A stretch of DNA of 64,000 bases, taken from NCBI GenBank assembly GCA_004293935.1, contig RDZH01000019.1, forward strand, positions 1 to 64,000. The letters are read 5' to 3'. The stretch comes from Alphaproteobacteria bacterium. Its GTDB lineage: Bacteria > Pseudomonadota > Alphaproteobacteria > Rickettsiales > UBA998. Position numbers and translations under genes: made by a program. Positions 4,817-61,849 of this stretch are shown here, in pieces. The first letter of the stretch is position 1. Every line of letters begins with the position of its first letter. The notes beneath the pieces are model-generated. The model was given only the letters and a program-made list of their open reading frames with translations. It did no database searches and had not been told where the DNA came from.

Positions 4817-5062
4817 ATGGCAAATATTACAATACGCGGCATTCCTGATCATACCAAAGACATATTACGGGTACATGCTGCACAGCATGGGCAATCTCTA
4901 GAATCTTATATTCGCCGTATGTTACAAGAAGCAACAAATAAGTCAGTCACGGATAATACGGGTATGTTGGATATAGCTCAGAAATGGTTCGGAGAAGAGC
5001 ATGGCATTGATATGGAAATTCCTGAGCGTCATACAAAGCGTTCAATAGAGGTATTTGAATAA
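4817..5062 (+). CDS. FitA/VapB-like ribbon-helix-helix antitoxin
   Basis: MANITIRGIPDHTKDILRVHAAQHGQSLESYIRRMLQEA typical FitA-like. Confidence 0.88.
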   Translation: MANITIRGIPDHTKDILRVHAAQHGQSLESYIRRMLQEATNKSVTDNTGMLDIAQKWFGEEHGIDMEIPERHTKRSIEVFE

Positions 5063-5481
5063 TGATTATTCTTGATACCAATGTCATTTCTGAATTAATG
5101 CGCCCCCTCCCAGATGAAAAAGTAACAGCATGGTTAGGTAATAGAACAAAACTTCATTATGGCATAACGACTATCACGATTGCTGAAATTACACGAGGAA
5201 TAGAGCGGCTAGCCATAGGAAAAAGACAAGATGATTTACGCTCTCGTTTTGCGCAGTTTGTGAATGAGGCTTTTCATGGTCGCATCTATGCTTTTGATGA
5301 AGAAGCTGCACAAAACTACGCGACGATAGCGACAAGACGTGAACGCTCTGGATTACACGCTGATCCTATGGATATGCTGATTGCAGCTATAGTCAAGGTG
5401 CATAAGGCTACGCTTGCTACCCGTAATATCAAGGATTTTACAGAATGCGATATTACGATCATGAATCCATGGAATAGCTAG
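5062..5481 (+). CDS. VapC/FitB-like PIN-domain toxin
   Basis: MIILDTNVISELMRP, TTITIAEITRG, DPMDMLIAAIVKVHKATLATRNIKDF PIN motifs; 1-nt overlap with antitoxin. Confidence 0.92.
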   Translation: MIILDTNVISELMRPLPDEKVTAWLGNRTKLHYGITTITIAEITRGIERLAIGKRQDDLRSRFAQFVNEAFHGRIYAFDEEAAQNYATIATRRERSGLHADPMDMLIAAIVKVHKATLATRNIKDFTECDITIMNPWNS

Positions 5482-10038: not shown

Positions 10039-10557
10039 ATGATACCGATTTTTTTGATAAAGTGGAAAGTACGCATTAAACGCGCTGTAGGGGCGCAACG
10101 AGCCTCCCTCAATGCACGGGCGCGTGCCTCCCTAGAAGATACCTTAGAAGCCATTGCCCAAGAAACGGTTGAAACGGGAAAAATCTTTCTACGCCGTGTT
10201 CAATGTACCCTATGGTGTGCCCCCTCACATCAACGCGATCAGTTTAGAGAATATTATCGTCACATGTTGCTGCAAGTGCGCAAAGATTACGGGCTTGAAG
10301 ATGGTTCGTACTTATCCAAAGCCCAGCAAGCACAGCTTGAATCTTTGCGTATCTATGCGCGAGAGCAGCAATTAGATCGTTCCTTGAACCGCGCAGCCTT
10401 GCGCCGTATTCACGGCATGTTGATGCGCCACCCTGAAATGCATCAAGCCTTGCATGAGATACGGGGTAGCGTACATGGTGAACCAACTCAAAATCAAGAA
10501 ACACCGATGATGCACAAAGCCCCCTCACAGACGGTACGGCGTGAACCTTCACGATGA
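10039..10557 (+). CDS. Hypothetical protein
   Basis: 172-aa ORF close downstream of DUF1674 gene. Confidence 0.5.
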   Translation: MIPIFLIKWKVRIKRAVGAQRASLNARARASLEDTLEAIAQETVETGKIFLRRVQCTLWCAPSHQRDQFREYYRHMLLQVRKDYGLEDGSYLSKAQQAQLESLRIYAREQQLDRSLNRAALRRIHGMLMRHPEMHQALHEIRGSVHGEPTQNQETPMMHKAPSQTVRREPSR

Positions 10558-10729
10558 ATGGCACAATTTTATCAACATAACATATAGTTTTAGTTGACTT
10601 TGAGATCATAATCTTATAAAAAACACCGAGTTTAGACTAAATCATATGTTTGATATGCGCTATTATGGTAGGTGCTTATCGTTATATTATTTAGTTGCAC
10701 TATTATTAGAGATAGTGTTTATATCTTAC

Positions 10730-11067
10730 GGAGTGGTGGCCGAGAGGCTGCCCGCAGTGCTTAGGCACTGCTAGTTTATGTTTGCCTTGCGGCCTTACTC
10801 GGCAGATCCAATCACTTACGGAGTGGTGGCCGAGAGGCTGCCCGCAGTGCTTAGGCACTGCTAGTTTATGGTTGCCTTCAGCCTTACTCGGCAGAAGAAG
10901 TACGTGAACTATCCAATCACTTACGGAGTGGTGGCCGAGAGGCTGCCCGCAGTGCTTAGGCACTGCTAGTTTATGTTTGCCTTGCGGCCTTACTCGGCAG
11001 GAGATGCGTGAACTATCCCCTTGCGGCCTTACTCGGCAGGAGATGCGTGAACTATCCAATTACTTAC
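10730..11067 (+). repeat. Tandem array of three truncated tRNA-Ser 5' segments fused to a palindromic element
   Basis: GGAGTGGTGGCCGAGAGGCTG at 10730, 10820 and 10925, each followed by CCCGCAGTGCTTAGGCACTGCTAGTTTATG.TTGCC..GGCCTTACTCGGCAG; spacers resemble the tRNA leader (ATCCAATCACTTAC). Confidence 0.95.
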
Positions 11068-11159
11068 GGAGTGGTGGCCGAGAGGCTGAAGGCGGCGGTT
11101 TGCTAAACCGTTATACGGTTAATCCCGTATCGGAGGTTCGAATCCTCTCCACTCCGCCA
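11068..11159 (+). tRNA. tRNA-Ser (anticodon GCU), CCA encoded
   Basis: GGAGTGG...CCACTCC acceptor stem, anticodon loop TTTGCTAAA, long variable arm, GGTTCGAATCC T-arm, terminal GCCA. Confidence 0.97.
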
Positions 11160-11438
11160 TTAAATTATCGTAAATATCTAAAAAATATGGATATTATTTC
11201 TATCCACTCAAAATATACCCCTAATTATACCCCCAAAGTGATGTGGGTAGGTGCTACGATGTACTGTTATTTTCATCAAAAGACAAGATAAGTAGGGTAG
11301 AGCGTATATATAATTCCTATTTTTGATAATCATGATTTTTCTTTCTCTTGATGCGTGCAAAAACTGCATAAACCCATGTTATGCTCTGGTTTTTGAGGTT
11401 TTTGCAGTTTTTGCATGGGGTGCGAGTTCTGTATTATG

Positions 11439-11630
11439 CTACTCAACAACACTCCTCACAATCAGCAACATACCATCTTCATCATGCGGATTAAAGGCTG
11501 GGTGGGTGGCGTGATAGACTGCAATCGCTTCTTGCTGTGATTGTCCTATTCCACATATAACCACATGCGGGTGCTGGGGTATGGTGCGCTTGCGTTCTAT
11601 ACGTTTGATGCGGTTGGATAATGCGCTCAT
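11439..11630 (-). CDS. Small hypothetical protein of integrative element
   Basis: 63-aa ORF, 3-4 nt overlap with upstream 11627-12025 ORF. Confidence 0.55.
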   Translation of the reverse strand: MSALSNRIKRIERKRTIPQHPHVVICGIGQSQQEAIAVYHATHPAFNPHDEDGMLLIVRSVVE

Positions 11631-12025
11631 CTACGTTCCTCAAGTGCGGTGATGCGCTGTTCTAATTCCAATGTTTCATAGTGCTTGCGATAGCCTTCTA
11701 ATAAATCAGCAAACGATTTACCCTCTTGTGGCGTGAGTTCACCCGCTGCTACCGCTGCAATCAGGTGTGCATGTGCGCTCATAACATCATGGGGATGATG
11801 TAGGGGAGGTATCGTGAAGCGAATCGGTGTATCTTTCGCGGTGGGCATGATGCGTTCCAGCACTAGCTTAATCGCTTGCATTTCTCCATTTTTAGCAAGT
11901 TCGATTGCTTTGCGCGTAATGGCTTCCGCTTCACCATCCAGCAATGATTGCAGATAGAGAGTGGATTGATTCCTACTCCCCTTGGGTCTACCTGCACCTT
12001 CTCTTTTTCCGCCTTTTTGTTTCAT
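11627..12025 (-). CDS. DUF5681-like / terminase small subunit-like protein
   Basis: N-terminal KGGKREGAGRPKGSRNQSTLYLQSLLDGEAEAITRKAIELAKNGEMQAIKLVLERIMPTAKD. Confidence 0.7.
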   Translation of the reverse strand: MKQKGGKREGAGRPKGSRNQSTLYLQSLLDGEAEAITRKAIELAKNGEMQAIKLVLERIMPTAKDTPIRFTIPPLHHPHDVMSAHAHLIAAVAAGELTPQEGKSFADLLEGYRKHYETLELEQRITALEERR

Positions 12026-12154
12026 AGCTACTCACCAAACAATGATAATGATTGAATGTTTATCAATAGGATAACATGATATATTCCTAGGGTAAAGCTG
12101 CAAAAAATATAAGTGCAACCACCGTGCAGAAACTGCATAAACCTCATAAACCCC

Positions 12155-13708
12155 TTACCTCCATTGTGCGACAAGTTCTGGATGAACATCATACAGCAAT
12201 GCAGGTCGCCCACCTTTCTCGGTGGTTTTTCCACGTTCTTTGATGATGCCTGCCTCGCACATAAAATCAAGGGCGTGATCTCGCCTTTTTCTATCACGTA
12301 GCGGAGAGTTTTTAGCGCGTGGTAGCTGGCTTGCATCAAGTATGGCTGTACGTTGTTTGGATAGCCATTTGAGAATAAGACGTGCGTCCCGTTGCTCTTG
12401 AGGTAGTGCCATATCGCCAAAGCATCGCACCGCCATAGGGAGGTAATAAGCATCAACCAAGGTAATAGCACGTTCTACGGTGTGTTTTTCTATGCTGGTT
12501 GGCTCATCCCAATCTGTGCCTACTGCCCAATCAAGAAACGCCAATACCCCCGCAATACGCACCACATAGCCACGCATTTTCCCTATGTGCGATTCTAGCA
12601 ATCCATCTGCTTCTTGTTCTCTTTGCGCTAGATGCTCGGCATAATCAAATAAGCAATCGCGTGCATCTTCCTCAAAAGGTACAGAAATGGATTGTGGCGT
12701 GCCATACTGATCCATGCGTAATTCCAACTTATAGAGTCGCGTAAAGATATGCATGAGTAGTTTTTTATCATAGCGTGTATTGTGCCTCTGTATTGGTACA
12801 CGATCCGAACAATCATAGAGAAAACGTGCAGATAATCCATCATCGGTGCTGGCATGAAATATCTCAGTCAAGCGTTGCGGTTGAATGCCCCCTAGCAAGG
12901 TGAGTAGTAGGCGTTGGATGATAAGCGGTTCAGGGCGGTTTCTTGTATCTACCGTGTAACGTCTGCCACCGAACGACTCAATATAAAACTGCCTATCTGT
13001 ACCGCCTCCATAACGCTCCATATTCATAAGTAAGCCTGCCATTTCATCACGCACCATGCATAAGCCTCGTGGGTTTTGTTGTACCAATTCTGCTATTTGT
13101 TCTATGCTTCCAGTAGTAACCACAATGCGCTTCCTGCGTGGCGGGTGCGGTTGTTTGATGGCTTCCTCTTTATCAGGCAGTGCATCGCCGTCCTTCAAGG
13201 CTTTTTTCGTTTGTTCCTTGCTTAGCTTTTCTTGTGCTTCATAGAGTTTCATTTTTTCCTGATATTCTGCTTTCAGTGCCTCATAATCGCTATTGATCTC
13301 TAATTCAAGTTCCTCAATAATACGACTGCACACATCCATTGCAGGAGATTTATTGCTGCTTGGTGCGCCTACAATCATCATCCATAAGGTTGGTGGTTCA
13401 TACCAATCATGCTTTGGGTTAATGCTACGGCTGATGCCAATCAATCCACCTGCTAGAGAAAGCACGGTGCTTGCTACATAACCAATCGGCGCACTTTTGC
13501 TAAGTGCTGCATCATGAATCACTTGTGCAAGCATAGGGGGTAAGGTAGCAAGAGGGAACAAAGGTGCAGGTGGTGATGTGGTGCTATCATACGCACCGCT
13601 TAACGGCTTCCATTCATTCGCTGATGAAGGGGGGATTTCTGCAAAGCCTTCGGGCAAAGCAAAGGGCTGTGCTGCCTGTGCAGCATCATTATGGGTGGTG
13701 TCAAACAT
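12155..13708 (-). CDS. DUF3987 (YfjI-like) replication/helicase-like protein
   Basis: APSSNKSPAMD (P-loop-like), PRGLCMVRDEMAGLLMNMERYGGGTDRQFYIESFGGRRYTVDTRNR, LLTLLGGIQPQRL. Confidence 0.85.
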   Translation of the reverse strand: MFDTTHNDAAQAAQPFALPEGFAEIPPSSANEWKPLSGAYDSTTSPPAPLFPLATLPPMLAQVIHDAALSKSAPIGYVASTVLSLAGGLIGISRSINPKHDWYEPPTLWMMIVGAPSSNKSPAMDVCSRIIEELELEINSDYEALKAEYQEKMKLYEAQEKLSKEQTKKALKDGDALPDKEEAIKQPHPPRRKRIVVTTGSIEQIAELVQQNPRGLCMVRDEMAGLLMNMERYGGGTDRQFYIESFGGRRYTVDTRNRPEPLIIQRLLLTLLGGIQPQRLTEIFHASTDDGLSARFLYDCSDRVPIQRHNTRYDKKLLMHIFTRLYKLELRMDQYGTPQSISVPFEEDARDCLFDYAEHLAQREQEADGLLESHIGKMRGYVVRIAGVLAFLDWAVGTDWDEPTSIEKHTVERAITLVDAYYLPMAVRCFGDMALPQEQRDARLILKWLSKQRTAILDASQLPRAKNSPLRDRKRRDHALDFMCEAGIIKERGKTTEKGGRPALLYDVHPELVAQWR

Positions 13709-13713
13709 GGGTA

Positions 13714-14286
13714 TTATCCTTCTAAAATAGTAGAGTTCTGCATCAATCGTTCATTAAAATCTTTGTAGCCTTGCGGGGCAATAATACGCACCATGCACCC
13801 TTGTTGTAGGAAGCGACTGCGTGCCTGTTCTGATGCATTTATGCCTGCGCTGTCATTATCACGAAAAATTAGCACTTCCCTAATGAGTTCAGGAAGTTGC
13901 ACATTGCCTAAGCCTGATGCGCTTCCGACTGCCCAACATGGTACGCCTGTCATCTTCATCACGCTCAAAGCATTTTCTATGCCCTCAGTTAGTCCAATGG
14001 TCGGTGCAATCGGGGCAAGCCTAAGCGCACAACCTCGTGATGATCCTAGCATTAGCTTCGGATTAATGCCTTCACCTTGTATCTTTTCGCCTTGCGGAGT
14101 AAGGTAGGTGCGGTGAATGGCGCACGGGTTGCCTTGCGCATCACGATAGAGTGCTACCATACATGGGTGCTTCTTTTTGGTTGCTGGGTGCAACATAGCG
14201 GGATGATAACGTATATCTTCAGGAATTATCACACCATCAAGTGCGCGGTGCTTCAGATAACGCATGACGGGATTATCATCGTGCAT
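13714..14286 (-). CDS. Toprim domain protein, primase-like
   Basis: HRTYLTPQGEKI, LRLAPIAPTIGLTEGIENALS, EVLIFRDNDSAGINASEQARSRFLQQG. Confidence 0.88.
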   Translation of the reverse strand: MHDDNPVMRYLKHRALDGVIIPEDIRYHPAMLHPATKKKHPCMVALYRDAQGNPCAIHRTYLTPQGEKIQGEGINPKLMLGSSRGCALRLAPIAPTIGLTEGIENALSVMKMTGVPCWAVGSASGLGNVQLPELIREVLIFRDNDSAGINASEQARSRFLQQGCMVRIIAPQGYKDFNERLMQNSTILEG

Positions 14287-14689
14287 GACACCCCCCTAAT
14301 GGATGAGCATCATTCCATAGGGCAAGAGCATATTTTTGCTTGCTTGCGCGTTGTGCTTCATCCTCATGATGATGAGGGCGGGGAAGTGGTGCAGCTATAA
14401 GCTGCCCACCCCCTGCAAATTGCGCCACTATCTGAGGCACTTCCTCAAAATTGCACCCTGTGAGAGCCTGTACAAAGGAAAAAGCATCTCCCCCTGTTCC
14501 TGCCTCAAAGTCATGATACAATCCTTTTTGCGTATCAAACACCCGCGCCCCTTTTGTACCTATGCGCACCTCATGACGATGCTGTATGACATGCGCTCCA
14601 TTGGCATAATGCTGTGCAAGTGCAAAGGCGTGATGATGAATTGCTGCACGCACCGCTTCTTTATTGAATGGGGTCATGGTGTGCCTCAT
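14276..14689 (-). CDS. Primase N-terminal-like domain protein (start likely MTPFNKEAV)
   Basis: GTKGARVFDTQKGLYHDFEAGTGGDAFSFVQALTGCNFEEV; overlaps the toprim ORF start. Confidence 0.65.
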   Translation of the reverse strand: MRHTMTPFNKEAVRAAIHHHAFALAQHYANGAHVIQHRHEVRIGTKGARVFDTQKGLYHDFEAGTGGDAFSFVQALTGCNFEEVPQIVAQFAGGGQLIAAPLPRPHHHEDEAQRASKQKYALALWNDAHPLGGCHAR

Positions 14690-14945
14690 TGTTTATTGGT
14701 GAAAAACTACCTAACAAAACATAACGCCCTACACGATGCAGCTTGCCTCGTTCTGTGGGTTGCCATGTCCAAGCGGTGACAATATCTATACCCTGCTTGC
14801 GCAATTCTTTGATGCGTCCTGCGGGATGAAGAATATCTAACAAGGTACGTGCTTCAAGGGAAGTGACTCCTAATACTCCACGTTCTTTCAAGGCGTGAAA
14901 TAATCGGCTGCGTTGCGCTGCCGTATTGGTGCTTAAATCATTCAT
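14661..14945 (-). CDS. Helix-turn-helix domain protein
   Basis: MNDLSTNTAAQRSRLFHALKERGVLGVTSLEARTLLDILHPAGRIKELRKQGIDIVTAW, phage-type HTH. Confidence 0.7.
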   Translation of the reverse strand: MNDLSTNTAAQRSRLFHALKERGVLGVTSLEARTLLDILHPAGRIKELRKQGIDIVTAWTWQPTERGKLHRVGRYVLLGSFSPINNEAHHDPIQ

Positions 14946-15239
14946 CTTACACCCCCTTTTCAGAAGATAAGCGGCTTTCAGCAATGCGTGCTTCCTCAAA
15001 CGGACTTTATTTTTTGCTTTTTTTTACTAGATGCACAATGCGCATAATAAGCAAGAGTATCTTGAGTGCGTGTTCCAAAAATTCATAATCCATGTGTTCA
15101 TTACTCCTAATGAAATAAATGATTGCGTTTCATAAGGAATATCATGACACAAAGCCAAGCGATTAAAAGGACTATAAACTCACAAATCCTATATATAACG
15201 TACTGTAAAACAAAGACGATAAAGAAAAAGTATATCGCT

Positions 15240-16499
15240 CTACTTTATAGTTTCCTGCTGCTTGATATAAGCATCGTCATACTTCTTCATTCCAATTTTA
15301 TCTCTCAAAGTTTTTTCCTGAAAATTAAATGCGTTATTTTCCTGAGCCCACTGCACAAGTGACTGTAGCTCTTGATAAAAAACGCCAATTAGTTCTTTTG
15401 CTTCCACTCTACGATGATATTCTTCCATTACAGTTGCTATTTTTGATGGTCGTCCAATTTGCTTTTGGGGTTGTGGTTCTTCGTCTGCTCGTGTTTTAAG
15501 TGGCAACATTTCTTTTAGCTGTGGTCTTATCCTGATTCCTAATTCATGACATAATGCTACAAAGACTGATGGTTTCACTTTCCACTTTGCAATATCTTGC
15601 TCATTGGGATCAAACAAAACGGATTGTTTTTTCATAGAGTCACCCATGATGGTGTAATAGACTAAATCATAAATGTCTTTTAGTCCTGACCATTCATTTG
15701 CCCACTCATGCCATACAAAATAATTATCTCCATGATCTGGCAGGTTAGGGTTATTAAAATGATTGGCAATCTCTTGCTCAAAAGAACGCCACCGCATTTC
15801 ATCCATCATTATATCTGTGCCAAATGCAGATGGTCTACCCATGACAAAACAACATGCTTGTGCGAGTCCCCACTTTATGTCTTTCAAATGCCTATTAGGA
15901 ATCGAAGTCGCTTCATAAGCAATGAAATTGTTTATTCTATACAAACAATCATCTCTCATGCTCTCATGATGTTGATTATAGTCAATCAATGCATGTTCCA
16001 ATTTTTCAGGGATTTTATTTTCAGTATCACTCACCCAATGTTTCAAATCGTAGTTATATATCCATGCAGGGTGGTTGTTCCAAAATTTTGAATAAATACT
16101 TGTTTGTTTTAACGGGGTAACTGTCTGAAAGTTAACATAATAATCATACAGACTTTGATAGGTTTTTTTGATTTTTGTGGTTTCTTTTTCCGAACAACCT
16201 ATTTCTGCAATCACTTCCTCAAGGGATAAATCTTTTATCTCACAACTGTAAACGGGTTTAATATTGTGCATCAAGCAAGCAAAATCCAACAATATTATGC
16301 TTTCGGTGCAAATCATTTTCGCATGTTCAAACCATCCTGAACGCTCAATAATCTCGCCTTCAGCGTTTATATGTTGGATTGTGTCGGGAATGTATATTGA
16401 GGGCTTTCTTACGTCACAAGTTGCGTTCTCTGATAAAGATTCCACTTTCACTAATTCACTCATAGCACCTCCTGATGATGCGTTTATTGTGCAATGCAC
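15240..16499 (-). CDS. Hypothetical 419-aa protein, possible cargo of the integrative element
   Basis: Long intact ORF; start possibly MSELVKVESL. Confidence 0.6.
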   Translation of the reverse strand: MHCTINASSGGAMSELVKVESLSENATCDVRKPSIYIPDTIQHINAEGEIIERSGWFEHAKMICTESIILLDFACLMHNIKPVYSCEIKDLSLEEVIAEIGCSEKETTKIKKTYQSLYDYYVNFQTVTPLKQTSIYSKFWNNHPAWIYNYDLKHWVSDTENKIPEKLEHALIDYNQHHESMRDDCLYRINNFIAYEATSIPNRHLKDIKWGLAQACCFVMGRPSAFGTDIMMDEMRWRSFEQEIANHFNNPNLPDHGDNYFVWHEWANEWSGLKDIYDLVYYTIMGDSMKKQSVLFDPNEQDIAKWKVKPSVFVALCHELGIRIRPQLKEMLPLKTRADEEPQPQKQIGRPSKIATVMEEYHRRVEAKELIGVFYQELQSLVQWAQENNAFNFQEKTLRDKIGMKKYDDAYIKQQETIK

Positions 16500-16757
16500 A
16501 TAAAATAGGGGAAGTTCCAGTGCGTTTCAATAGTTACCTGTTGATTTTATTGCGTATTTATGCGTTATTCTGTGCTTCCTAGGTTTATGAGGTTTTTGCA
16601 GTTTATGCACACCTCATAGGGGATTATTTTTTATAGCGCGTTAACTTTACATTTGCACATTCTCTATGTGCTTGTAATGTTAAAGTCGCGCTATAAGTCA
16701 TTATAAAATATAGCACTACTTAACTTTATGGCGCAGCATAGATGCGCAGTTATAAAG

Positions 16758-17954
16758 TCAAAGTGCTATCATCTCATCAAGATGATTGCTCCACCATTGC
16801 ATCATCTCTTTGCGTTCTTTCATATATTCCGCATGATTATAGGCTGCACGGATTTTATTACGCTCGGCATGAGCAAGTTGCCTCTCAATCACATCGGCAC
16901 GAAACCCATGCTCATTGAGGATGGTGCTTGCAGTAGAACGAAACCCATGCCCTGTGGTTTTGCCCTTATACCCCATACGATAAATCGCAAAAAGCATCGT
17001 ATTATTGCTCATTACATCGTTTTTCTTTTTTGCTCCCTGCTTATTGATGTTCGGGAACAGATAATCCGTGCCATTGCTATAATTCCTAATCTGCTCAAGT
17101 AAGGATAGCACCTGCGGGGTGAGCGGTACGATGTGCGTTTCTTTCATCTTCATACGGTGTGCGGGAATGCGCCACTCGGCTTTATCCAGCAAAAACTCCT
17201 CCCACCGTGCTTCCCGTAGTTCGGTGGTACGCACCATTGTATGAATCAGCATCAACAAGCCTAGGCGCGTAAGCGGGTCACCATGATAATGCTGCAACGC
17301 GTGCATAAAAGCGGGGAGTTCCTCTGCATGAAGATGTGCAAAATGCGTTTGTTGCGGGGTGGTGAGTGCGCCTTTTAAGTCTGCTGCTGGGTCGCGTTCG
17401 GCTTTGCCTATCACAATCGCATAACGAAATATCTGCCCACATACTTGTGCATTACGGTGTGCCACTTCATGCGCCCCGCGTGCTTCTATCACACGCAATA
17501 CCCGCAATAATTCAGGGGCAGTAATATCACTAATCGGTCGGTTGCCTATCTTGGGGAAAATATCTGTTTCTAGTCGGCGCATGATAATCCATGCGTTCTT
17601 TTCATCCCATGCAACGGATTTCTTACTATGCCATTCCCGCGCTACTGCCTCAAAACTATTATGAGCGCGTGCATGACGTTCCTGCTTTTCTTCCTGCTTC
17701 ACTAGGGAGGGGTCTTTATTCTGAGAAAGTAGGGCTTTTGCCTCTGCTCTCTTTGCGCGTGCTTGGGATAGAGTGATATGCGGATAAACACCTATAGCTA
17801 GGAGTTTTTCCTTGCCTGCATAGCGATATTTCATGCGCCAATATTTACTACCGTTCGGCATCACCTGCAAAAATAATCCCTCCCCATCGGTGAGTTTATA
17901 GGCTTTTGCTTCTGGCTTGGCATTGCGTACTTTTGCATCACTGAGTTGCGTCAT
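16758..17954 (-). CDS. Tyrosine-type integrase with DUF4102 arm-binding domain
   Basis: MTQLSDAKVRNAKPEAKAYKLTDGEGLFLQVMPNGSKYWRMKYRYAGKEKLLAIGVYP; GHGFRSTASTILNEHGFRADVIERQLAH. Confidence 0.95.
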   Translation of the reverse strand: MTQLSDAKVRNAKPEAKAYKLTDGEGLFLQVMPNGSKYWRMKYRYAGKEKLLAIGVYPHITLSQARAKRAEAKALLSQNKDPSLVKQEEKQERHARAHNSFEAVAREWHSKKSVAWDEKNAWIIMRRLETDIFPKIGNRPISDITAPELLRVLRVIEARGAHEVAHRNAQVCGQIFRYAIVIGKAERDPAADLKGALTTPQQTHFAHLHAEELPAFMHALQHYHGDPLTRLGLLMLIHTMVRTTELREARWEEFLLDKAEWRIPAHRMKMKETHIVPLTPQVLSLLEQIRNYSNGTDYLFPNINKQGAKKKNDVMSNNTMLFAIYRMGYKGKTTGHGFRSTASTILNEHGFRADVIERQLAHAERNKIRAAYNHAEYMKERKEMMQWWSNHLDEMIAL

Positions 17955-18154
17955 GATTTCTATCCATCATCGGTAATTTATACCCCCACTTATACCCCCA
18001 TAATCATGTGGATGTCAACGGAATAGAAAAGAACGGAACGCTCTATATATCATTGAATATCAAAATAATATGTGATACTAGTGAAACTTATTGGAATGAA
18101 AAATCTTTTAATTAGAAGGTTCTCCACTCCGCCATTCATGATGCGACAACCGTT

Positions 18155-18699
18155 CTACATGAGGGTTAGATTGCCCCGCAAATGTATCTGATGATTATAA
18201 TGATGGCAATAATTTTTTAGCGTTTGATGCAATTCCTTTGCAGAGGAAAATTTAGTGGTGTTCAAAATCTGCTGGACTATACCATTAAATCGCTCGACCA
18301 TACCATTGGTTTGCGGAGAAAACGGCTTGGTTAGCCTATGCTCTATGCTATTCTTTTTTACACACAATATCGAACTTATGATTGCCTGTTGGTGTGCGCT
18401 CACCTGTCGCACAAAAACGGTCAGTGAACTCTTTGCCATTATCGGTTAAAATAATGGTACGAAGATTGCCAACACCATGCCGATGCAATAAGCATTGCAA
18501 CGAAGATCGCACCATGTCGGGCTTCATATAGTGCTTTGACACTATAATTACCTATTCTTAGCGATCGCAGCATGACTGAGAGGAGATGCGCAGATAGCTT
18601 TACGTAAAGCTGGTGTTGTGCGTGCATTGCGGTGAAGACGGAGTTCCATAAAGATCGTTCCTTTTTGGTGAATGAGTGATCAGGATAATGACTATCCAA
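18155..18699 (-). pseudogene. Frameshifted IS transposase (rve/DDE integrase core) remnant
   Basis: Three overlapping frames: VGNLRTIILTDNGKEFTDRFC and HRLTKPFSPQTNGMVERFNGIVQQIL in different frames. Confidence 0.85.
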
Positions 18700-28121: not shown

Positions 28122-29903
28122 GTGAGAAAAATCATGCAAAAGCACAATACATCCTTTAGTTTCATTAAACAAGACAATGTTCAAACGAACAAACACCGCC
28201 AACGTATTGATCATTATTATCTAAGCGATGAAGCGGTTCTTGATGGTGATGGTAATGAGTGGAAGCTCCTTACGTCCACATCTAATGGTCCAAGCCGTAA
28301 CCCAAAATGGTATGATGGTGCGACAATGCTTGTCTGCGGAGAACGCATTAGTAATGGACGAGATGGATGTGACTATCCTGATAGCATTCCATTTGTCGCG
28401 CCTGATGACCAATTCACGGTAGAAAATCTAGCCCGTTCGTTCGCCAGTGTGCATCGTTTGGAAGAAGCAGAACAGTTGCTGCCCGATGCTAAAGAGCGTT
28501 TCGCTCAAGAAATAGCGCGTGTCAGAAAAGATATGCGTGAGAAGGCATTTGCAACATTATATACTGAGATTGAACGACCAGAAGATATGCGCATATATGT
28601 TCAGAGTTATCAGCCAGAGAGAGGGGAGATATGTTACGAACGTCAACAAAATCTACAAGCGCAAGGTATTACCCTCAATAGCATTGCTAAGGAAGATTTA
28701 ATATCTGCTGCACTCTATGTTCTTAACGTCACAGAAACCCCCCATATTAATCGGCGTTTGAAGAATTTAGTCAATACTCCTAAAGATCAGCGTGAGTTTA
28801 GGAATGATACACATGATCTCACTCTTTCAGTAAGCGGCATGTGGGAATTAAAAGAAAGAAAAAACTGGGGTAGATGCACGGAACATTTGTCATACAACAA
28901 AAAAGATTTTGCCCCAAAAGCAGAATATGAAGAATATGCAGCACAATCATATCAACAATTACAGAACGAATACCCTGATCCCATAGTTTTGGAACAAGAT
29001 GGCAAATATTTTGCGGCACTACCCAACAATAAAACTGGTAAATTGATGGTTCATGCGATCACAACAGAGAAATATGCACAACCTACAGATCGTTTTGTGC
29101 TGTATGATCCGCATATGTTCCCAATCGATGATAAAGTATATGCATCACCCGAGGCTTTAGAAAAAGCAGGCTATAGCATTGCTACGCCACCGAAGATGCC
29201 AAGCAGAGATGAATTTCATAAAGATTATGCATTTGCTATGCAAGAACGTAATGGAATAATTGAAGTGCATTCCATAGGGGCGGGAGGCAAAAAATTACTC
29301 GCTCGGTTCTCGGATCAGGAAGCAGCGGAAGCAGTGGGATGGATAACACCCGAACGGGAAAAAGAAAAAACACAGCAACGAGCGCAACAGGAACAAGAGC
29401 AAGCACTACAGGAACAGCGCGATAGCATTGCTGCAGCCAAAGCACAAGCAGAAGCCGCTTTACCACAACAACAATATCGTCTTAACCGTGCATTGGCAGC
29501 AGTGCATTGGGGGATTGATAAAGATGAATCATTAATCAATGACAGTAATATTGTGACTTGGGCAAAAGATGGTGCAAAATTATGCGGTGAAATTTTGCCT
29601 AAAAAAGTAGATGTTGCTTATGATGTGGCAGTCGTTAAATATGCTGCTGCAAAGATTATTGTTGAAAAAGCAAAAGAAGGCGATCCTACCATCGATATGC
29701 CGCAAGAGATACTGAAAGCAAAAGCGCAAGGATGGGCTGCGGGCTTTACAGGCAAGGATGAGTTGATCGGCGCGATGGATTCTGCACTAGAAGATGTAGC
29801 TCTTGAATCTTATGAGCAAGGGGAAGCATGGCGTGAACATTACCCACATCTTGCACAAATCATGGAAGAACGATTAAAAAATGCTTCAGAACGTGGCAGA
29901 TAG
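28122..29903 (+). CDS. Large hypothetical protein (593 aa), Gln/Glu-rich coiled-coil segment
   Basis: Long intact ORF; EREKEKTQQRAQQEQEQALQEQRDSIAAAKAQAEAAL. Confidence 0.65.
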   Translation: MRKIMQKHNTSFSFIKQDNVQTNKHRQRIDHYYLSDEAVLDGDGNEWKLLTSTSNGPSRNPKWYDGATMLVCGERISNGRDGCDYPDSIPFVAPDDQFTVENLARSFASVHRLEEAEQLLPDAKERFAQEIARVRKDMREKAFATLYTEIERPEDMRIYVQSYQPERGEICYERQQNLQAQGITLNSIAKEDLISAALYVLNVTETPHINRRLKNLVNTPKDQREFRNDTHDLTLSVSGMWELKERKNWGRCTEHLSYNKKDFAPKAEYEEYAAQSYQQLQNEYPDPIVLEQDGKYFAALPNNKTGKLMVHAITTEKYAQPTDRFVLYDPHMFPIDDKVYASPEALEKAGYSIATPPKMPSRDEFHKDYAFAMQERNGIIEVHSIGAGGKKLLARFSDQEAAEAVGWITPEREKEKTQQRAQQEQEQALQEQRDSIAAAKAQAEAALPQQQYRLNRALAAVHWGIDKDESLINDSNIVTWAKDGAKLCGEILPKKVDVAYDVAVVKYAAAKIIVEKAKEGDPTIDMPQEILKAKAQGWAAGFTGKDELIGAMDSALEDVALESYEQGEAWREHYPHLAQIMEERLKNASERGR

Positions 29904-29947
29904 TGCTTCTATGATATAATTACCGATTGATCGGCAATTATATCATG
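29903..29947. repeat. Palindromic repeat, family D (copy 1)
   Basis: ATGATATAATTACCGAT-TG-ATCGGCAATTATATCAT; similar to 61723-61783. Confidence 0.75.
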
Positions 29948-61662: not shown

Positions 61663-61722
61663 AAACAACTATAAGGGTTATGCTATGACTATAAAAAAAC
61701 TTTTTCTTTTTTTGTGCATCTT

Positions 61723-61783
61723 ATAGTGCTTCCATTATATTATTACCGATTAATCGGCAAGTATATAATGGAAAAAGCACTAT
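61723..61783. repeat. Palindromic repeat, family D (copy 2)
   Basis: ATAGTGCTTCCATTATATTATTACCGATTAATCGGCAAGTATATAATGGAAAAAGCACTAT. Confidence 0.85.
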
Positions 61784-61795
61784 ACATCATAGTGT

Positions 61796-61849
61796 TATAG
61801 TCGTTTTTTGACATAAAAAATGAGTAATTTTTTTGTCAAACGACTATAT
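61796..61849. repeat. Palindromic repeat, family F (copy 3)
   Basis: TATAGTCGTTTTTTGACATAAAAAATGAGTAATTTTTTTGTCAAACGACTATA. Confidence 0.85.

Follow-up and report, generated by a model that had tools for sequence, protein, structure and literature searches.

The tRNA-Ser(GCU) Array

Three tandem units directly precede an intact tRNA-Ser(GCU) gene in the stretch of DNA analyzed here (positions 1–64,000 of contig RDZH01000019.1; hereafter the window), which belongs to an alphaproteobacterial genome assembly of 1.73 Mb in 39 contigs (GCA_004293935.1; G000). The gene lies at 11068–11159 on the forward strand and is the source of the copied 5′ ends; each unit consists of nucleotides (nt) 1–21 of this tRNA followed by a common module of about 52–55 nt. 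The exact 21-mer GGAGTGGTGGCCGAGAGGCTG is found at 10730, 10820, 10925, and 11068, as stated in an earlier note on this DNA, and the copies of an 81-nt repeat family of the window lie at 10725, 10815, and 10920.

All three units are on the forward strand. Unit 1 (10730–10819) contains the tRNA fragment at 10730–10750, the hairpin GCAGTGC-TTAG-GCACTGC at 10754–10771, an antisense arm at 10784–10803, and a short link. The corresponding parts of unit 2 (10820–10924) are found at 10820–10840, 10844–10861, and 10874–10892, followed by a link, and those of unit 3 (10925–11067) at 10925–10945, 10949–10966, and 10979–10998, followed by the leader ATCCAATTACTTAC that stands before the intact tRNA. After tRNA nt 21, the module is composed of CCC, the 7-bp hairpin, a T-rich spacer, and the antisense arm GCCTTCAGCC-TTA-CTCGGC. 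Read as its reverse complement, this arm corresponds to the D-arm of the tRNA (GCCGAG.GGCTGAAGGC, nt 10–26), and it reaches five bases beyond the breakpoint at nt 21. The recurring leader proposed earlier is present before units 2 and 3 (ATCCAATCACTTAC), but unit 1, from which most of the linker is missing, is preceded by a different sequence, TTTATATCTTAC. Unit 3 contains a 39-nt tandem duplication (10980–11018 and 11019–11057). Upstream of the array, a promoter-like sequence (TTGACT .. TATAAAAA; 10594–10622, forward strand) was recognized by reading; it is below the threshold of a consensus scan, and it is also found 5′ of the array of a sister species.

A Second Array and the Sister Species

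The same module is found in two units at the tRNA-Ser(GGA) gene on contig 29 of G000, where it is joined to that gene's own 5′ sequence, GGAGCGGTGG(C/T)CGAGTGGCTG. None of the 24 other tRNAs found in G000, including tRNA-Ser(UGA), has an upstream copy of its own 5′ end. In the sister species RDXO01, an alphaproteobacterial metagenome assembly (G001), one unit is associated with tRNA-Ser(GCU), as opposed to three in G000, and two with tRNA-Ser(GGA). Most flanking coding stretches of the two genomes are 93–95% identical, and the conservation of the units between them was therefore dropped as a sign of selection.

Nucleotides 5 and 16, by which the two tRNAs can be told apart, are locus-specific in the fragments of all eight units of the two genomes. 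The modules, in contrast, are not grouped by locus: that of unit 2 at tRNA-Ser(GCU) of G000 is one step from that of unit 2 at tRNA-Ser(GGA) of G001 and three steps from its array neighbors. This indicates that transfer or conversion of the module took place independently of the tRNA fragment. In the tRNA-Ser(GGA) arrays of both genomes, as well as in another genome of the order (G059), the distal copies are mismatched and the proximal copies identical, and the tRNA-Ser(GGA) array of G000 contains an additional 29-nt tandem duplication.

In the sister species, a dispersed repeat lies between the upstream gene and the array. Related copies of this repeat are found elsewhere in the window but not at that position; the copy at 61722–61849 of the window is 87% identical to that at 10407–10534 of locus L081, and a further one is at 29900–29943 of the window.

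Recurrence and Empty Sites

Further tRNA-Ser loci, fetched from genomes that were picked by genus and family alone, added many cases. A common layout was found in 19 genomes from five families of one order: a tRNA 5′ fragment, usually CC, a hairpin, an AT-rich spacer, an antisense segment across the breakpoint, a leader, and the intact tRNA. The carriers are G000 and G001 (family f1); G059, G080, and G332 (f14); G026, whose fragment is at a contig end, and G048 (f18); G050 (f20); and G036, G066, G076, G094, G103, G110, G122, G128, G348, G349, and G350 (f27), of which G110, G122, G349, and G350 have degenerate or partial units and were counted by eye. Its recurrence, with two loci in each of two species and additional cases in 17 other genomes, excludes an assembly artifact or chance. 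A pattern that ignores the module and requires only two nearby copies of the tRNA-Ser 5′ end was found in 9 of 352 genomes of the order and in none of about 383 from other orders (p = 0.001), and the pattern of a fragment followed by CC gave matches linked to tRNA-Ser in other families.

Among the tRNA genes checked, only those of tRNA-Ser are affected, with the anticodons GCU, GGA, UGA, and CGA. The copied fragments comprise 12–30 bases of the 5′ end of the respective tRNA, with breakpoints at nt 12 (G332), 17/18, 21, or 28–30. The CC that stands behind the breakpoint in most types closes a hairpin with GG of the copied acceptor strand. The inserts are about 50–95 nt long, gene-free, and capable of folding back in all types, and the central hairpin is variable in sequence at a nearly constant position. 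Several f27 units have the loop GGCGCYTGA after CCAGCC, related forms of which are present in f18 and f20, so that this motif crosses families and isoacceptors. At the f27 tRNA-Ser(GGA) loci, an antisense segment also stands 5′ of the first fragment; thus, the repeat unit is larger there. The relatives bear out the earlier suggestions of chimeras of tRNA 5′ fragments with a common fold and of a palindromic element tied to tRNA D-arms, including the check, proposed at that time, of whether the module sits at D-arms in related genomes.

Two variants were observed besides. Adjoining tRNA-Ser(GGA) of G332 (locus L182) on its 5′ side are two 38-nt repeats composed of tRNA nt 1–12, a hairpin, and TATATTTTTT, a minimal form without an antisense arm. 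In G036, G122, and G350 (loci L190, L199, and L200), older units are split near tRNA nt 10–13 by other palindromic insertions, of the GAAGC..GAGCGAAG type.

Two same-genus pairs with collinear flanks permit an empty site to be compared with a filled one: G337 (empty) with G080 (one unit) and G028 (empty) with G050 (one unit). The filled sites are longer by 102 nt (G080) and 123 nt (G050), and the gained DNA consists of the insert plus 24–29 nt of duplicated leader and tRNA start, with the intact tRNA retained. A promoter-like sequence common to empty and filled sites lies 5′ of the unit in both G080 and G050, which makes it probable that the leader of the pre-tRNA transcript includes the unit.

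Pairing and Predicted Folds

The pairing of the D-arm with the 3′ arm around the hairpin, postulated in the earlier note, holds over seven units of two species, in which both helices are 97–100% paired; the whole structure is 99% paired, compared with 24–48% after sliding by 1–3 columns. The change from GGCC to AGCC that had been cited for unit 2 as preserving the pairing does exist, but it is one-sided (U-G to U-A), is accompanied by the loss of one base, and is not a two-sided covariation. Within the genus no two-sided covariation was found; it was seen between families alone. The antisense arm tracks the tRNA of the host lineage (GCCTTCAGCC, GCTTTCGACC, CCTTCAACCAC, TAAACCAC, or GCGTGCGC). 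Among distinct tRNA-Ser loci, exact antisense matches of at least 8 nt are present upstream at 18 of 21 loci with a 5′ fragment vs. 2 of 32 without one (p = 3e-9). The arm spans nt 21/22 or 28–30 and is hence complementary to the intact tRNA across the insertion point. Because it extends past the breakpoint, it matches the intact tRNA better than its own fragment: the pairing energy of the consensus arm is −33.0 kcal/mol with the intact D-arm and −19.7 kcal/mol with the fragment.

The units fold better than shuffled sequences (mean z −1.9 over 27 units), a value that is descriptive, since the units are related. When the last unit was folded together with its tRNA, the predicted best fold paired the 3′ acceptor strand with the copied instead of the native 5′ end at 15 of 17 unit loci, compared with 1 of 12 controls, with a predicted advantage of up to 10 kcal/mol. 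Shuffling of the antisense arm reduced this advantage by ~2–8 kcal/mol at 8 of 13 loci and left it about unchanged at the others, and the displacement of the native end persisted. The predicted decoy fold thus results mainly from the copy itself, which weakens it as proof of function; we take it as a possible consequence rather than as evidence of selection.

Neighboring Features

An integrative element occupies 11145–18134 of the window, at the 3′ end of tRNA-Ser(GCU); its two boundaries are marked by repeated copies of 15 nt from this end of the tRNA (11145–11159 and 18120–18134, one mismatch). Encoded on its reverse strand are a DUF3987 protein (12155–13708), a Toprim protein (13714–14286), an HTH_39 protein (14661–14999), and a tyrosine integrase (16758–17954). 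This element is independent of the array. The earlier idea that the units mimic an attachment site for the adjacent integrase is not supported, as the boundary repeat of the element corresponds to the 3′ end of the tRNA and no element of this kind is present in the units at other loci. Just past it, at 18155–18699, are short adjacent open reading frames that resemble pieces of a broken insertion-sequence transposase. Farther upstream, at 4817–5481, a PIN-domain gene and the small probable antitoxin gene that precedes it are likely a toxin-antitoxin pair.

Comparison with Known Systems

Searches of Rfam at E-values up to 1 with 16 loci and the window region returned tRNA and, beyond it, nothing but weak matches to other families that stayed below threshold; neither the T-box covariance model nor any intron family matched at this level, and the module is too short for the catalytic core of an intron. 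In GTDB-wide searches with the module pattern, RDXO01 was the sole match with tRNA-Ser, and class-wide searches with the antisense pattern gave coding-like chance matches in other orders. The module pattern was absent from viral contigs. A viral origin was rejected, as the 28 viral matches to the filler of the f27 type lack tRNA and resemble coding DNA rich in GC or unrelated sequence, and so was a phage or plasmid origin, for which the matches were mostly ordinary tRNA-Ser or short chance ones. The literature search found no account of such units, with most subscription journals outside its coverage.

The internal guide sequence of group I introns is complementary to the target across the insertion point. 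The antisense arm has this guide-type complementarity spanning the joined exons or insertion point, but the units lack a catalytic core and are followed by an uninterrupted tRNA. The attC sites of integrons are imperfect fold-backs with two short paired boxes, an unpaired spacer, and a variable terminal hairpin, and they occur in arrays. The units resemble them in all these respects; however, they are not associated with cassettes, their conserved boxes are the tRNA D-arm, no attC core boxes (RYYYAAC/GTTRRRY) were seen in them by eye, and no integron integrase turned up, none having been searched for. Like T-boxes and other tRNA-linked leaders, the units would form a structured leader with alternative pairings that involve a tRNA; unlike them, they lead a tRNA gene, pair with its D-arm, and give no T-box match.

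The palindromic YPAL/RU-2 elements of Yersinia are small insertions with target duplications of 3–26 bp at or beside dyad symmetry (PMC2229807), and the units share with them the small palindromic insert and the duplicated target of variable size. YPAL is, however, a 168-bp element, whereas the fillers of the units are shorter, differ between families, and depend on the lineage, the target is always tRNA-Ser, and one arm is antisense to it. Rickettsia palindromic elements (RPE) are stem-loops of 105–146 bp that also enter the RNA genes of tmRNA and RNase P RNA (PMC2229807). Like RPE and bacterial miniature inverted-repeat transposable elements (MITEs), the units are small stem-loop elements, and RNA genes are among the targets of RPE. 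Those elements are dispersed in intergenic regions and protein genes without regenerating their target, but the units are confined to tRNA-Ser, of which they duplicate the 5′ end. As expected of MITEs, the units are non-coding, shorter than 200 bp, and capable of folding back, with a target duplication (of variable length) and an empty site; no candidate emerged for an autonomous transposon that would share terminal repeats with them. Given that many dispersed copies are lacking in G000 and G001 and one arm is antisense to the target, we did not file the units under YPAL or RPE. The recurring arrangement fits no family found and may represent a tiny tRNA-targeting insertion element or a control element of tRNA-Ser.

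Origin and Possible Role of the Units

We tentatively favor the explanation, which we rate at somewhat below even odds, that the array belongs to a family of small insertion units that fold back and are specific for the D- and anticodon arms of tRNA-Ser. Insertion of a unit would take place after nt 17/18, 21, or 28–30, in the D-loop or in the anticodon stem on its 5′ side, and would duplicate the promoter-proximal part of the gene, i.e., 0–40 nt of leader and the tRNA 5′ end. As the duplicated part is promoter-proximal, the intact tRNA would remain downstream and the insertion would be tolerated, presumably as a neutral change. The inserted DNA would fold back by pairing of the copied D-arm with the antisense arm across the hairpin, and the 5–6 nt by which this arm extends beyond the breakpoint and matches the intact target would contribute to target choice. 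Tandem arrays could then result from repeated insertion, unequal exchange, and local duplication, with the copy that adjoins the tRNA being the youngest. Such a small insertion element is favored by the combination of a regenerated target, the variable presence of units, the exchange of modules, and the decay of distal copies. Several observations weigh against it. The duplicated length, about 20 to 70 nt, is not constant, unlike that in classical transposition; no transposase or recombinase linked to the units was found; in G000 and G001 the module occurs at tRNA-Ser sites only, although a mobile element might leave stray copies and MITEs have many dispersed ones; and a module could also pass from one tRNA gene to a similar one by gene conversion or serial template switching.

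The constant architecture, isotype specificity, and leader position leave room for a function at the RNA level, the main rival explanation, which we consider appreciable but rather unlikely: the unit would be co-transcribed with tRNA-Ser, its copied 5′ end and antisense arm would compete with the real 5′ end, and the precursor would fold into either tRNA or a dead end, tuning tRNA-Ser output. The shared promoter-like sequence 5′ of the unit in G080 and G050, the predicted preference for the copied 5′ end, the stronger pairing of the arm with the intact D-arm, folding above that of shuffled sequences, and the constant position of the hairpin despite sequence change are consistent with this role. 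The alternative fold, however, survives shuffling of the arm and is mostly a by-product of the copy, close relatives lack units, unit number varies, and some units seem to hold a weak promoter of their own, so that the last transcript may skip the unit. The variable length of the duplicate, together with the inverted copy across the breakpoint, also fits a template-switch origin, in which a tandem duplication of the 5′ end and template switching during replication would leave an inverted D-arm copy and gene conversion would maintain the tRNA-like fragments. The extra tandem duplications within units, of 39 nt in unit 3 and of 29 nt in the tRNA-Ser(GGA) array of G000, and the lineage-specific fillers point in the same direction. 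We judge this origin unlikely in view of the restriction to tRNA-Ser in G000 and to a single order, the repetition of breakpoints, CC, and hairpin in five families, and the filler motif common to different families and isoacceptors. Much less probable still are small-RNA mini-genes, in which each unit would combine promoter elements with a tRNA 5′ fragment and a terminator and would yield an RNA resembling such a fragment. A terminator-like hairpin does stand right behind the fragment in all units of the window (three found, 0.7 expected), GGCTCG-TCCA-CGAGCC-TTTTTT follows nt 30 at tRNA-Ser(GGA) of G348, and a −35/−10-like pair was read before the next fragment in tRNA-Ser(GGA) arrays; but in many units no T tract follows the hairpin, and the promoters inside the window units are weak and missed by the consensus scan. 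Least probable of all, and disfavored, is the explanation that the units mimic attachment sites of integrative elements or are what is left of them. Such an element is present at tRNA-Ser(GCU), but its repeat is the tRNA 3′ end, no large element separates any fragment from its tRNA, the duplicated stretches take in local leader sequence, and the inserts are not integrase elements flanked by repeats of part of a tRNA.

A further and decidedly improbable reading is self-guiding insertion specific for one tRNA isotype, in which the antisense arm would act as an internal guide, by analogy with the guide sequence of an intron or a bridge RNA, and steer a folded-back molecule, either RNA or single-stranded DNA, into the tRNA-Ser D-arm. 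Re-templating on the tRNA of each host would keep guide and target matched. Where tRNA genes are known to serve as landing sites, it is mostly their 3′ half that is used. An element that recurs on the 5′ half of the genes of a single isotype, leaving the gene intact and bearing an arm antisense to it, would be a new way to parasitize or control a tRNA gene, and the empty and filled sites within the same genus make it directly testable.
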